Source: Arenibacter nanhaiticus (GTDB taxonomy: Bacteria > Bacteroidota > Bacteroidia > Flavobacteriales > Flavobacteriaceae). Taken from it: a stretch of DNA of 64,000 bases. Shown piece by piece: positions 33,102 to 53,502 of the stretch; positions within the stretch are counted from its first letter, which is position 1, and the number at the start of each line of letters is the position of its first letter. A program made the translations under genes and the position numbers. The DNA lies in NCBI RefSeq assembly GCF_900141935.1, contig NZ_FQYX01000004.1:70668-134667 (forward strand). Reading direction: 5' to 3'. The notes under the pieces were generated by a model. That model made no database searches, was not told where the DNA came from, and saw nothing but the letters and a program-made list of their open reading frames with translations.

Positions 33102-33710
33102 ATGGCTTTTGATTTACCTAATTTACCATATGCTTACGATGCGCTAGAACCACATGTTGATGCTAGAACAATGGAAATTCACCATTCAAAACATCACAAT
33201 GGATATACTACCAACTTAAACAACGCAATTCAAGGGAGCGATTTGGCAAATAAGTCTATTGAAGATATTTTAACGAACCTAGACATGTCTAATGCCGCTG
33301 TACGAAACAATGGTGGTGGTTTTTACAACCATAGCTTGTTTTGGGAAGTAATGTCTCCAAACGGTGGAGGAACTCCAACAGGAGCCTTGGCAACCGCTAT
33401 TGATGCCGCTTTTGGTTCTTTTGAGGCTTTTAAAGATGCCTTTTCTAAAGCTGCTGCAACAAGATTTGGCTCTGGTTGGGCTTGGTTGTGTGTTCAAAAA
33501 GGTGGGAAAGTAGAAGTTTGTTCTACCGCTAACCAAGACAACCCATTGATGCCAGAAACAGGATGTGGTGGGTTTCCTATCCTAGGATTGGATGTTTGGG
33601 AGCACGCTTACTACTTGCATTACCAAAACAGAAGACCAGATTATATCAACGCATTTTTTAAGGTTGTTAACTGGGAAAAAGTTTCGGCCCTGTACGAAGC
33701 AAACAAATAA
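33102..33710 (+). CDS. sodA: Superoxide dismutase [Fe/Mn]
   Basis: A 202-residue cytoplasmic enzyme that dismutates superoxide to oxygen and peroxide. Metal ligands are His in EIHHSKHH near residue 27, His in [11 protein letters not shown] near 76, and Asp and His in [15 protein letters not shown] near 163-167. The Fe/Mn preference cannot be assigned with certainty. It is monocistronic, with a -7 box and two downstream hairpins. Codon use is strongly biased, as expected for a highly expressed gene. Confidence 0.96.
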
Positions 33711-33807: not shown

Positions 33808-33881
33808 ATAGAAAAAGGTGGAGAAATCTCCACCTTTTTCATCCCAAATCTTACCATAAACTTAACCTACTTATGCTATGG
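33808..33881 (-). ncRNA. Candidate small RNA, copy 1 (with terminator)
   Basis: Minus-strand unit of about 74 nt. The 39-nt 5' segment (33843-33881) begins CCATAGCATAAGTAGG and is nearly identical in copies 2 and 3. It is followed by a perfect 14-bp hairpin (33811-33840) that runs into a U-rich tail. CCATA and TATGG inside the conserved part can pair. A promoter sits 5 bp upstream. A short ORF beginning ATGGTAAGATTTGGG (MVRFG) is possible, but its continuation differs between copies, so RNA function is favoured. Confidence 0.65.
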
Positions 33882-33886
33882 CATGA

Positions 33887-33918
33887 CTAAAATACTTTGA
33901 TTGTGAGAATAATCAAAA
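33887..33918 (-). promoter_or_regulatory. Promoter of candidate small RNA copy 1
   Basis: On the minus strand TTTTG (33914-33918), a 19-bp spacer, then TATTTTAG (33887-33894), one mismatch from TAnnTTTG. The predicted start is at about 33880, the first base of the conserved segment. Confidence 0.65.
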
Positions 33919-34216
33919 GAAAATCAGGAAAATTATGTTTAAATTAATATTTAAGGAGAAGGTTGTTTTAAGGTCTATAAGGAATTTAATTATAAAGTAC
34001 TGTATTTAAGGTGTTAAGGAGTCGTTTTAAGGAGGTTTGTTTTTTATGAATATAGAAAATAATTGTTTTATGTAACGGAATTCTGACTAATTAGGTTCTT
34101 TTCATAGCTTAAATGGCGATGACGGCCATTGCGCTGCCATGGGAAATATCTAGGGCTGCCAACATTTGGTTTGGGCGGTATACTGCTGTTTTAGAAAGAA
34201 TCTAAGGGGGTGTTAA

Positions 34217-34289
34217 AATTAAAAAGGCAGAGCTGTGCTCTGCCTTTTTCCCCAAATCTTACCATTAACTTAACCTACTTATGCTATGG
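34217..34289 (-). ncRNA. Candidate small RNA, copy 2 (with terminator)
   Basis: The same architecture as copy 1. The conserved 39-nt segment is at 34251-34289 with one substitution relative to copy 1. It is followed by the 13-bp hairpin AAAAAGGCAGAGC/GCTCTGCCTTTTT (34221-34249). The hairpin sequence differs from copy 1 while its position and form are kept. Confidence 0.65.
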
Positions 34290-34294
34290 TCCTC

Positions 34295-34302
34295 CAAAAG
34301 TA
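34295..34302 (-). promoter_or_regulatory. -7 box TACTTTTG of candidate small RNA copy 2
   Basis: A perfect TAnnTTTG on the minus strand, exactly 5 bp from the conserved segment as in copies 1 and 3. Confidence 0.6.
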
Positions 34303-34462
34303 ACGCAAAGGGTCTTTGTGGGGAATACTTTTAGTTGAATGTCGTTGATAATTGGTTGAAATGCTTTTTTAGGAATATTATGTAGGGCATTAAAGGATTA
34401 AGATAGCATTTGGAGGGTATTCTTGGTTAAATTTAATCAGATCGATCCTCTTTTGGGTGTTT

Positions 34463-34542
34463 GGGCGTTCCCTCCTTCGTCGGGCGGGCTTTTGGCTATA
34501 TCCCTTGCTCCGCTACGGGGATGCCGCCGCTATCCCTAACGC
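34463..34542 (-). repeat. Structured dispersed repeat family 1, copy B
   Basis: 80 bp, minus orientation. It matches copy A closely (GCGTTAGGGATAGCGGCGGC at the start, GGAGGGAACGCCC at the end). The inner loop is CCG-TAG-CGG where copy C has CGC-AGCA-GCG, a paired change. It is followed on the minus-strand 5' side by ATTGATTATTGAATGCC, similar to the flank of copy C. Confidence 0.8.
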
Positions 34543-34633
34543 GGCATTCAATAATCAATTAGCAATGTGCCTATATGAGAAAGGGCATAAGAACTACGTA
34601 TATTGGCTATGCCTTCATATATGTATACACTTT

Positions 34634-34651
34634 CAAAGTCGGAAGACTTTG
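34634..34651. repeat. Small hairpin CAAAGTC-GGAA-GACTTTG
   Basis: A perfect 7-bp stem with a GGAA (GNRA-type) loop in the non-coding gap. No gene end is nearby, so it is not an ordinary terminator. Confidence 0.45.
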
Positions 34652-34743
34652 AGGAGTTGGTTATTATTTACGCTTCACCCTTTACTGCTAACTTTTTTTT
34701 ATTGCTAACTACTTAATATTCATTGTAAACCGGCTATTGTCAA

Positions 34744-34793
34744 GGCCAACGCACCAGCTGGCCCCTCCTTGTAAATGCAGATCGATGCATTTT
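34744..34793 (+). repeat. Structured repeat family 2, copy 1
   Basis: About 50 bp: GGCCA/TGGCC hairpin around ACGCACCAGC, a short spacer, then hairpin AAATGCA-GATCGA-TGCATTT. Copy 2 at 34975-35024 keeps both hairpins. Confidence 0.65.
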
Positions 34794-34974
34794 TTGTTAG
34801 GACCTATTGTTAATTGAAATTTTCCTATTCACTCCTTCTCTCTGCTAGCACTCCAATACATATTTATACATTCTTTGTTCTTTTCTCCCTTTTCTTTTAT
34901 CCAATCTCCATGCCTGAATAGCATTAGCCACTTTTAAGCATTGTTTATTGCGAATGGAAAATGTCTACTGCCAT

Positions 34975-35024
34975 GGCCAACGAACCAGCTGGCCCCTTAC
35001 TCCAAATGCAAATCGTTGCATTTT
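34975..35024 (+). repeat. Structured repeat family 2, copy 2
   Basis: GGCCA/TGGCC hairpin around ACGAACCAGC, then AAATGCAA-ATCG-TTGCATTT. The second stem is one pair longer than in copy 1 through a matched change. It lies 16 bp before a family-1 copy. Confidence 0.65.
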
Positions 35025-35040
35025 CCGTGCGGTCCTTTTG

Positions 35041-35116
35041 AAGCGGATCCTTTTTTAGCAGCTTGGTCTGGCTAAAAAAGATACAGCGGAAAGAGCGGCC
35101 CGATTGGGGAACGCCC
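35041..35116 (+). repeat. Structured dispersed repeat family 1, copy D (5' end replaced)
   Basis: It has GCGGATCC, then a long inner stem TTTTTTAG/CTAAAAAA, then GATACAGCGGAAAGAGCGG and the end GGGGAACGCCC. The 5' GCGTTAGGGA part is missing, apparently replaced by family-2 flanking sequence. Confidence 0.7.
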
Positions 35117-35157
35117 AGCTACTATTAGTGCCTTAGGGATCGATCATAAAAATCGGA

Positions 35158-35233
35158 AAATAAAAAAGGCAGAGCTGTGCTCTGCCTTTTTTGCCCCAAA
35201 TCTTACCATAAACTTAATCTACTTATTCTATGG
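35158..35233 (-). ncRNA. Candidate small RNA, copy 3 (with terminator)
   Basis: The conserved 39-nt segment at 35195-35233 has two substitutions relative to copy 1. It is followed by the hairpin AAAAAAGGCAGAGC/GCTCTGCCTTTTTT (35162-35192). This copy is nearest to purF, whose stop lies 108 bp to the right on the same strand. The unit has its own -7 box, but it could also end the purF transcript. Confidence 0.6.
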
Positions 35234-35238
35234 TGACA

Positions 35239-35246
35239 CTAAGGTA
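35239..35246 (-). promoter_or_regulatory. -7 box TACCTTAG of candidate small RNA copy 3
   Basis: One mismatch to TAnnTTTG (the same TTAG variant as copy 1), 5 bp from the conserved segment. Confidence 0.5.
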
Positions 35247-35340: not shown

Positions 35341-37239
35341 TTAGTAAGCGCGTTCGTTTTTGCCTTCATAAAAATTGATAAAAGCTCTGTTGACCACTCG
35401 GTTACCCCCTGCTGTTGGGTAGTCTCCGGTGAAATACCAGTCTCCTAAATTCTTAGGACAGGCTTCGTGTAAATTCTCTACCGTTTGGTAAATGATCTTA
35501 ACTTCGGCCTTAATATCTGCAGGACTTAATAATTCACCAATTTTCTCCGAAATTTCTTCAGGAGTAAATGGCGCATAAAAGTCTTTTACATGGTTTACGA
35601 TGTCCTTGTCCAGCATGTTAACCTGCGTAAGACATTTTTGATAAATCTCTTCAACAATGTGCATGGTGTTCCTGTCTTGGTGTAGGGCCAATGCTGCTTT
35701 AAAAGCAACAAAATCTTCCAATTTGGCCATATCTATACCGTAACAATCTGGATAACGTATTTGTGGTGCCGAAGAAACAACGATAATTTTCTTAGGTAAT
35801 AAGCGGTCTAATATTCTTAGAATACTTTTCTTAAGGGTGGTACCCCTAACGATACTGTCATCGATGATGACCAAGTTATCGTCTTTTTTCACAGAACCAT
35901 AAGAAACGTCGTATACGTGGGCCACTAAATCGTCCCTGCTGCTATCTTGGGTAATGAAAGTTCTGAGCTTTGCATCCTTAATAGCTACCTTTTCTATACG
36001 TGGGCGAACCTCTAGTATTTCGTGCAGTTCTGCTGCAGTGATTTCTCTACCGATAGAAAGAATTTGTTCTTCTTTCTTTTTGTTCATATAGTTCTGAGCA
36101 GCTATCACCATCCCGTAAAAGGAAGTCTCCGCGGTATTTGGGATATAAGAAAAAACAGTGTTTTTAATATCCTCGTCTATGGAGTCTAGAATTTGTGGAA
36201 AAAGTAATTTCCCCAACTGCTTGCGCTCTTGGTATATTTCTTTGTCACTACCTCTAGAAAAATAAATACGTTCAAAAGAACACGCCTTTCTTTCTGTCGG
36301 CTCAATTATTTTCTTAAACTTAACGGTACCGTCCTTTTTAATGATAATAGCATGTCCTGGATCTAGTTCCTTCACCTCCTCAAAGGGAACGTTAAAAACG
36401 GTCTGTATAGCAGGTCTTTCAGACGCTACCACTGCAATTTCATCATCTTGGTAGTAGTATGCAGGTCTTATTCCGGCCGGATCCCTCAGTACAAAGGCAT
36501 CTCCATGCCCCAAAAGTCCGGCCATGGCATACCCACCGTCGAAGTTTTTTCCGGCTCTTTTTAAAATTTTACCAACATTTAACCGGTCGGCAATAAGCGG
36601 AGAAGCTTCTCTTTTGCTATATCCTTCCTTTTTAATGTCCTTGTAAAGCTTGGCTACGGCGTCATCTAAAAAATGACCTATTTTTTCCATTACCGTAATG
36701 GTATCTGCCTTTTCTTTAGGATGCTGTCCCAATTGAACAAGGTTGTCAAAAAGTTCATTAACATTGGTCATGTTAAAGTTACCTGCAACGATAAGGTTTC
36801 TGTGCATCCAGTTGTTCTGTCTAAGGAAAGGGTGAACGCTTTCGATGCTGTTTTTTCCAAATGTCCCGTACCTAACATGTCCTAAAAGAACTTCTCCAAT
36901 GTACGGAATATGCTTTTTTTGTTTGGCAACATCATCTGCATATTCCGGATTCTCTTTCATGGAAGAATTGATCCGATCGTTTATTTGGGCAAAAATGTCC
37001 TGTATCGGTTGCTGATCTATGGATCGGACCCTACTCATGTAGCGTTCTCCAGGATCCATGTCTAGCTTTATACTTGCAAATCCAGCACCATCCTGACCAC
37101 GGTTGTGCTGTTTTTCCATCATTAGGTACATTTTATTTACCCCGTAAAAGGCTGTACCGTACTTTTCTTTATAATATTCTAACGGTTTTAATAACCGAAT
37201 TAAAGAAATCCCACATTCGTGCTTAATGGCGTCGCTCAT
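35341..37239 (-). CDS. purF: Amidophosphoribosyltransferase (PurF-type, long Bacteroidota form)
   Basis: 632 residues, larger than the roughly 500-residue classical PurF. The N-terminal class II glutaminase has its nucleophile as Cys9 after processing context HECGISL, with NRGQDGAGFAS and GHVRYGTFG downstream. The phosphoribosyltransferase half shows the PRPP loop LVIIDDSIVRGTTLKKS near residue 465. The enzyme makes phosphoribosylamine, the first step of purine synthesis. A C-terminal extension of about 90 residues has no function I can name. The catalytic Cys is not at position 2, so N-terminal maturation would need to remove eight residues, or this is a diverged paralogue. It follows the PfkB kinase gene after a hairpin. 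Confidence 0.88.
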   Translation of the reverse strand: MSDAIKHECGISLIRLLKPLEYYKEKYGTAFYGVNKMYLMMEKQHNRGQDGAGFASIKLDMDPGERYMSRVRSIDQQPIQDIFAQINDRINSSMKENPEYADDVAKQKKHIPYIGEVLLGHVRYGTFGKNSIESVHPFLRQNNWMHRNLIVAGNFNMTNVNELFDNLVQLGQHPKEKADTITVMEKIGHFLDDAVAKLYKDIKKEGYSKREASPLIADRLNVGKILKRAGKNFDGGYAMAGLLGHGDAFVLRDPAGIRPAYYYQDDEIAVVASERPAIQTVFNVPFEEVKELDPGHAIIIKKDGTVKFKKIIEPTERKACSFERIYFSRGSDKEIYQERKQLGKLLFPQILDSIDEDIKNTVFSYIPNTAETSFYGMVIAAQNYMNKKKEEQILSIGREITAAELHEILEVRPRIEKVAIKDAKLRTFITQDSSRDDLVAHVYDVSYGSVKKDDNLVIIDDSIVRGTTLKKSILRILDRLLPKKIIVVSSAPQIRYPDCYGIDMAKLEDFVAFKAALALHQDRNTMHIVEEIYQKCLTQVNMLDKDIVNHVKDFYAPFTPEEISEKIGELLSPADIKAEVKIIYQTVENLHEACPKNLGDWYFTGDYPTAGGNRVVNRAFINFYEGKNERAY

Positions 37240-53267: not shown

Positions 53268-53412
53268 GTACAGAAAAGAACGGGCTGGCAACAATAATTT
53301 TGATGGAGCCTATTTTTTATATATCGGATAGTGACTTTTAGCAGGGCGTTTACTTTTTAGTGCTCAGCCTATATCAGGGACGTACATTATTGCTAACTGT
53401 TCGTTGTAACCC

Positions 53413-53502
53413 GCGTTAGCTATTGCAGCGGCATCCTTTTTTAGGGGGCCGGCACCCTAAAAAAGATATAGCGGAAAGAGCGGCCCCGATAGGGGAACGC
53501 CC
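53413..53502 (+). repeat. Structured dispersed repeat family 1, copy E
   Basis: 90 bp starting GCGTTAGCTATTGCAGCGGC. It has the longer inner stem TTTTTTAGGG/CCCTAAAAAA, GCTAT/ATAGC pairing, and a 3' hairpin CCCC-GATA-GGGG before AACGCCC. Confidence 0.8.

Follow-up and report, generated by a model that had tools for sequence, protein, structure and literature searches.

Several families of near-identical small RNAs (sRNAs) have been described in bacteria. For example, the FopS RNAs (RF04319) are paralogous sRNAs of Bacteroides thetaiotaomicron, with 14 members in that species (PMC11697453), and the siblings SisA-D of Caulobacter crescentus are opposed by a common sponge RNA, CrfA (PMC12559287). 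Likewise, LhrC (named in PMC11697453) consists of several near-identical RNAs. Qrr are also multicopy sRNAs with several near-identical members. We claim no sequence relation of either to the RNAs described here. Among flavobacteria, Rfp18 of Flavobacterium psychrophilum is an sRNA that affects the mRNAs of secreted proteases (PMC9723704). Small-RNA control in marine flavobacteria is little charted.

We analysed a window (the whole stretch of DNA under study, 64,000 nucleotides) from Arenibacter nanhaiticus, in which a 39-nt segment occurs in three copies on the minus strand between sodA and a GATase_7/GATase_6 gene, which we take to be purF, following the name given in an earlier, sequence-only reading. 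The features of the array are as follows.

33102..33710, plus strand: sodA (Fe/Mn superoxide dismutase; Pfam PF02777, PF00081), conserved flank by synteny
33808..33881, minus strand: sRNA copy 1 (class I), core 33843-33881 and terminator stem 33811-33840; exact ends inferred
33887-33894, minus strand: -7-like box TATTTTAG of copy 1, ending exactly 5 nt before the segment
33914..33918, minus strand: TTTTG, -33-like element of copy 1, with a 19-nt spacer
34219..34289, minus strand: sRNA copy 2 (class II), core 34251-34289 and terminator stem 34221-34249; exact ends inferred
34295-34302, minus strand: -7-like box TACTTTTG of copy 2, ending exactly 5 nt before the segment
34333..34360, minus strand: direct repeat TTCAACC / TTCAACT upstream of copy 2, 21-nt period, found by eye; putative regulator site, without binding data
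35160..35233, minus strand: sRNA copy 3 (class III), core 35195-35233 and terminator stem 35162-35192; exact ends inferred
35239-35246, minus strand: -7-like box TACCTTAG of copy 3, ending exactly 5 nt before the segment
35276..35303, minus strand: direct repeat TTATCG / TTACCG upstream of copy 3, 20-nt period, found by eye; putative regulator site
35341..37239, minus strand, as the sRNAs: purF-like gene (Pfam GATase_7, GATase_6), conserved flank by synteny

The sequence-only reading had claimed that the segment is repeated three times on the minus strand with 0-2 substitutions relative to copy 1, that a TAnnTTTG-type -7 box lies exactly 5 bp upstream of every copy, that copy 1 has a TTTTG element at 19-bp spacing, and that each copy is followed by a strong terminator whose sequence differs between copy 1 and copies 2 and 3 while its form is kept. 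All of these claims held. Copy 2 differs from copy 1 by one substitution and copy 3 by two, and a degenerate search for the 39-mer (<=3 mismatches) in the 4.36-Mb genome returned three matches, all in the array, with none for the reversed pattern. Directly after each copy, an inverted repeat forms a hairpin with a T-run, the stem sequence being common to copies 2 and 3 and different in copy 1. For every copy, segment and terminator together folded better than 200 of 200 shuffled sequences (z -3.7 to -4.8), and no open reading frame of >=50 aa was found over the copies. We infer a small RNA of ~72 nt per copy, with the 5' end of an RNA of ~70 nt predicted near CCATAG. Two 86-nt repeats, 76% identical to each other, lie between copies 2 and 3 (34724-34809 and 34955-35040).

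The array has a fixed location. Among 188 copy-bearing loci, 123 contained both purF and sodA, and in all 123 the copies lie between these genes on the purF strand; 34 loci contained only purF, 28 only sodA and three neither. Loci from different searches may belong to the same genome in this count. In some genomes of the genus the array is split, with one cluster on the side of purF and another on that of sodA. The core (31 nt, <=3 mismatches) was detected in all 18 genus genomes and in 109 of the 299 genomes of the family, representing 90 of 236 genera, without any match for the reversed control. A covariance-model search had also been proposed, and we ran it with a model built from 60 copies on a sample of 395 genomes of the class. 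Matches passing E 0.01 occurred in 149 of these genomes; strong matches (>=68 bits) were confined to ten, all of them Flavobacteriaceae, and the model extended the sRNA within the family to the genera g126, g128 and g155, again at purF-sodA (L185-L191). Outside the family, the best matches in the 395 genomes did not exceed 39 bits, and none of the five loci inspected there looked like this RNA. Viral contigs gave no match for three patterns.

To describe the promoters, we used 368 distinct copies collected from relatives. The box TANNTTNG stands at a gap of exactly 5 nt in 280 of them, compared with 22 at gap 6, 23 at gap 7 and 19 at gap 0. A terminator repeat alone, it had been argued, would not keep such spacing; the box keeps its position in these 280 copies. 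The sequence-only reading would have been refuted by homologues that carry the 39-nt segment without box and terminator; such homologues were not met as a class, without a dedicated search, and in 88 of the 368 copies the strict box is not seen at the 5-nt gap. The letters 3' of the core sort the copies into class I (85), class II (131) and class III (138), with 14 unassigned. Along the direction of transcription the classes follow the order III-(II)n-I, as in 34 arrays of III-II-I, 21 of III-II-II-I and 14 of II-I, other arrangements being fewer; copies 1, 2 and 3 of the window belong to classes I, II and III, respectively. The class I promoter has the consensus TTTgTTATTTc.CACAATACCAGTAaTTTAG. 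Upstream of the other classes, a loose T[TC][AG][TAC]C motif is repeated most often at 20 nt (87 pairs in class II and 68 in class III), a peak that class I does not have, and a strict TTNAWCGA lies upstream of 95 of 138 class III copies, nine of 130 class II copies and 17 of 86 class I copies (reversed controls 3, 1 and 1). Several copies with differing promoters would yield one almost identical RNA, which could let different signals act through a single product.

The RNA itself is strongly conserved. Across 107 copies, variation is absent or nearly absent at most of the 39 positions; at position 24, C occurs in 75 copies, T in 30 and A in two. The same position is T in 85 of 85 class I copies, which suggests that the copies are old orthologues rather than recently homogenised duplicates. 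A paralogue shorter by one nucleotide (ATGGTAGATTTGGGG) stands beside a standard copy in L036-L038, L042, L043, L050 and L057, and nearly every copy at the g126, g155 and g128 loci (L185-L191) has this form. The terminator helix shows compensatory changes in seven of its 11 pairs. No compensatory changes were found for the 5' hairpin, whose fifth pair is non-standard in 44 of 60 copies. The claim that promoter, conserved 5' part and terminator stay linked, as in a multicopy sRNA family, is therefore supported by the spread of the core, the position of the box and the seven covarying stem pairs. The family, its -7-like boxes, terminators, synteny and copy order are facts at the level of sequence; that the copies are transcribed remains an inference from sequence alone.

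A rival explanation takes the copies for mobile repeats, of terminator or REP-like type, that have no RNA function. In its favour, a hairpin repeat dispersed in the genus resembles, at its reversed end, the 3' half of the sRNA core; the similarity takes in about half of the core, reading outwards from the end of the repeat. The fixed purF-sodA location, the class order, the box spacing and the terminator covariation speak against this explanation, which we hold to be highly unlikely. The dispersed repeat is an intergenic element starting with CCCAAATCTTACC and continuing as ..TGCGC..GGATCCTG.., which accounts, by a letter filter, for 39 of the 82 sites (80 loci) inspected after an exact 11-mer search in the genus. 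That search gave 190 matches (control 46), of which ~62 are sRNA copies; most of the other inspected sites lie in or against long open reading frames, and the inspection did not cover every place, omitting among others one in G002, one in G012 and four in G013. The genome of the window carries the repeat at C45:3142 (L395) and C72:25445 (L397), with 36 more of the loci L341-L420 also having it. We saw by eye no -7 box in front of it, and 11 loci tested had no Rfam match. The element could be mobile or act as one more decoy.

No Rfam family reached threshold on the sRNA copies. Flavo-1 RNA (RF01705) gave nothing on the copies and one sub-threshold match between them (35038-35093); elsewhere in the window, it scored above threshold at 53404-53489 (52 bits). 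The sRNA could also belong to the Bacteroidaceae FopS family (RF04319) as its Flavobacteriaceae branch, in which case it would repress mRNAs of SusC-like transporters. Both are multicopy RNAs with a 5' part and a terminator, the string UUCAUGGUA(UU)AGAUUU is common to both, and cmscan reports a weak match of copy 3 at 19.9 bits. This score is well short of the gathering score of 56, however, and an equally good alignment was obtained with 38 of 5000 dinucleotide shuffles. Moreover, the model found no strong match outside the family in the 395 class genomes, and a rough check of 30 of 55 SusC-like places showed no excess (mean -20.4 kcal/mol versus -20.1 kcal/mol for shuffled RNAs). The latter result is weak because the minus-strand loci were not reversed. 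We consider a FopS branch very unlikely.

Beyond what had been read from the window, namely the copies and their signals, we found the fixed order of promoter classes, an antisense RNA elsewhere in the genome and a complementary protease leader. The antisense RNA was first met in a search for leaders starting with CCAAATCTTAC, as short units that combine TTGACAACT and a -7-like box with CCCAAATCTTACCAAACTAAACC and a terminator. A small RNA complementary to the core is present in 17 of 18 genus genomes (<=3 mismatches; two matches for the reversed control), including that of the window (C80:121192-121214, three mismatches). Its 5' end is predicted near CCCAAATC, giving an RNA of ~65 nt. The ACAACT element is at its usual place in 17 of 17 genus loci and a hairpin with T-run in 15 of 17; the genome of the window and G014 have a longer hairpin without an immediate T-run. 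In the family, with two mismatches allowed, the motif gave 45 matches in 39 of 299 genomes (control 9), and 36 of these 39 genomes carry the sRNA core (Fisher p 8e-15). We inspected the loci of 31 genomes, comprising 30 motif loci and G018 (L290), and left out those of eight motif genomes. The full architecture was present in 24 of the 31, all 24 being sRNA-positive (p 5e-12, counting all other genomes as without the architecture). Of the motif loci, 23 of 30 have it, 22 with a TTKACAACT-type element as scored by script; it is absent from seven (L311-L314, L318, L327, L336), five of which are in sRNA-positive genomes. No antisense match was obtained at two mismatches in 73 of the 109 sRNA-positive family genomes, although other searches found the RNA at least in G000 and G137. 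It accompanies arrays of three or more sRNA copies (32 of 54 versus 4 of 55 with fewer copies, p 4e-9). The neighbourhood is also conserved: yidC adjoins the antisense RNA in 29 of 32 loci, its identity being confirmed in L302, and the other neighbour is a fasciclin-domain gene in 19 and an mnmA-like gene in 11. Four tandem antisense-RNA copies, ~200 nt apart, occur at L280 / L329 (G146:C9:58825-59437). No Rfam family reached threshold for the antisense RNA in the three loci tested.

At loci with the architecture, predicted duplexes between sRNA and antisense RNA reached -25.9 to -47.0 kcal/mol, whereas shuffled sequences averaged -11.7 to -15.6. These energies partly reflect selection, because the loci had been found by complementarity. 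The pairing is weaker in the genome of the window (-22.9 to -29.0 kcal/mol), where zero to two of 500 shuffles were as good. If a sponge is defined as a separately encoded RNA that is complementary to the sRNA seed and has its own promoter-like element and terminator, the yidC-linked RNA meets this criterion, with the reservation that its -7 box is off consensus: AAnnTTT. (AAnnTTTG) or CAnnTT.., at least one letter from TAnnTTTG. The direction in which the sponge would act is inferred.

The likely target is a protease leader. A 23-mer matches the leader of one orthologous gene in six of 18 genus genomes (control 0). The gene encodes an S8 subtilase with an fn3 domain, is present in 15 of 18 genus genomes, and its leader before the ATG can form an uninterrupted run of 21 pairs with the class I RNA. 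Among the 15 genomes, predicted pairing is -31.9 kcal/mol or better in nine, -27.5 to -22.6 in three and -20.6 to -17.3 in three (G003, G000, G014). The leader has drifted in the genome of the window, where equally good pairing was obtained with 6 to 64 of 500 shuffles. When the whole leader pattern (starting with CCAAATCTTAC) was searched, the 32 matches hardly exceeded the 26 of the control; the signal within them is that nine of the 32 are one form before one gene family. These exact TTTGTAGTCCAAATCTTAC leaders were found in nine genomes of nine genera, one of them a congener of the window's species (G015); the S8 genes that follow share 49-89% identity with the query, and all nine genomes are sRNA-positive. 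The antisense RNA, the protease leader and their complementarity to the sRNA are thus established as sequence. By eye, the protease promoters contain TTCATCGA and, ~20 nt further, a second TTAATCGA-like repeat, as in class III. From this we infer that one regulator may be shared by the protease and class III promoters; that it is of the LytTR type is only a guess.

We then have to consider whether the direction is reversed, with the multicopy RNA as a decoy and the yidC-linked RNA as the regulator acting on mRNAs. The two RNAs pair either way, and many copies would suit a decoy. However, the S8 leader reads in the same sense as the yidC-linked RNA (CCAAATCTTAC), which leaves the multicopy RNA as the only one of the two with which the mRNA can pair at this site, and the multicopy RNA is found in many genomes without an antisense match. 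We regard the reversed direction as unlikely. Equally improbable in our judgement is that the sRNA mainly titrates an RNA-binding protein, such as an RRM protein like Bacteroides RbpB, the 39-nt segment being the protein site. Near invariance over 39 nt exceeds the need of a seed, and FopS RNAs do bind RbpB (PMC11697453), but titration explains neither the conservation of the antisense RNA nor the protease leader.

Conserved complementarity to target RNAs, taken as a criterion, is met by these observations, though neither a compensatory test nor a target survey came out positive. The compensatory test used genus g128, whose RNA contains ATGGTAGATTTGGGG, and yielded 32 exact matches in 348 genomes against 33 for the reversed control. 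Of the 30 loci inspected, two (L429, L433) are the sRNA gene read backwards, about ten represent one repeated non-leader context and one (L427) could be a leader. The survey of G049 covered 652 gene starts in 40 stretches ~100 kb apart (0.80 of 3.87 Mb, 21%), two of them chosen to take in the array and the antisense locus. At <=-28 kcal/mol it found four real starts versus a control mean of 1.8 (maximum 5), which is no significant excess, and its seed scores equalled those of the controls. Of the top 25 genes, 16 had a signal peptide, where 24 controls gave a mean of 9.0 and a maximum of 14; of the top 40, however, 21 had one, where the control maximum was 24, and we do not rely on this result. 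At L312 and L313, a leader complementary to the sRNA precedes a 29-codon open reading frame starting MEKVIRSFK, a possible target or small protein.

We consider it likely that the array encodes trans-acting multicopy sRNAs opposed by an anti-sRNA. According to this model, each unit would be the gene for a ~72-nt trans-acting RNA with a single-stranded or weakly folded 5' part, whose segment GGUUAAGU(N)AUGGUAAGAUUUGGG would pair with other RNAs, followed by an intrinsic terminator. The sRNA would most likely block translation of the secreted S8 protease by binding the short leader of its mRNA as far as the start codon, and the yidC-adjacent RNA would most likely bind and inactivate the sRNAs as a sponge, relieving the block on the protease. 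A translational block is the simplest effect for a short leader with a site reaching the start codon, and it is in line with F. psychrophilum, whose 5' UTRs have a median length of 24 nt (PMC9723704). Repression rather than activation is itself inferred. A bolder reading, which we regard only as possible, is a Flavobacteriaceae-wide circuit in which the ordered sRNA array with its different promoters, the yidC-linked antisense RNA and the dispersed hairpin repeats, which would share the pairing sequence, compete for one seed and tune secreted proteolysis, with a regulator common to sRNA and target.

The sRNA sequence strings were absent from the literature full text searched (supplements and most subscription papers lay outside its scope), a search by topic, mostly of titles and the starts of abstracts, returned no recognisable description of the circuit, and purF and sodA are not named in the main text of the Rfp study (PMC9723704). 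The array sRNA resembles FopS (PMC11697453) in being multicopy, ~70 nt long and built of a 5' part and an intrinsic terminator, and also in its canonical Bacteroides promoters, its pairing near start codons and the short string UUCAUGGUA..AGAUUU. Unlike the 14-member FopS family, it occurs in one to several copies at purF-sodA, remains below the Rfam threshold and has an S8-protease leader as its likely target; the sections of PMC11697453 considered here mention no antisense RNA. Like Rfp18 (PMC9723704), it is a flavobacterial sRNA kept beyond the species and linked to secreted-protease mRNAs, whereas Rfp18 pairs through its third stem-loop and affects metalloproteases. A parallel in arrangement is SisA-D with CrfA (PMC12559287), sibling sRNAs opposed by one RNA in another phylum, where they were found on Hfq. 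Sibling sRNAs with a sponge are therefore a kind of system already known elsewhere, to which the present locus adds a precise RNA, antagonist and target site conserved across several genera, so that the circuit is directly testable with seed and site mutations.
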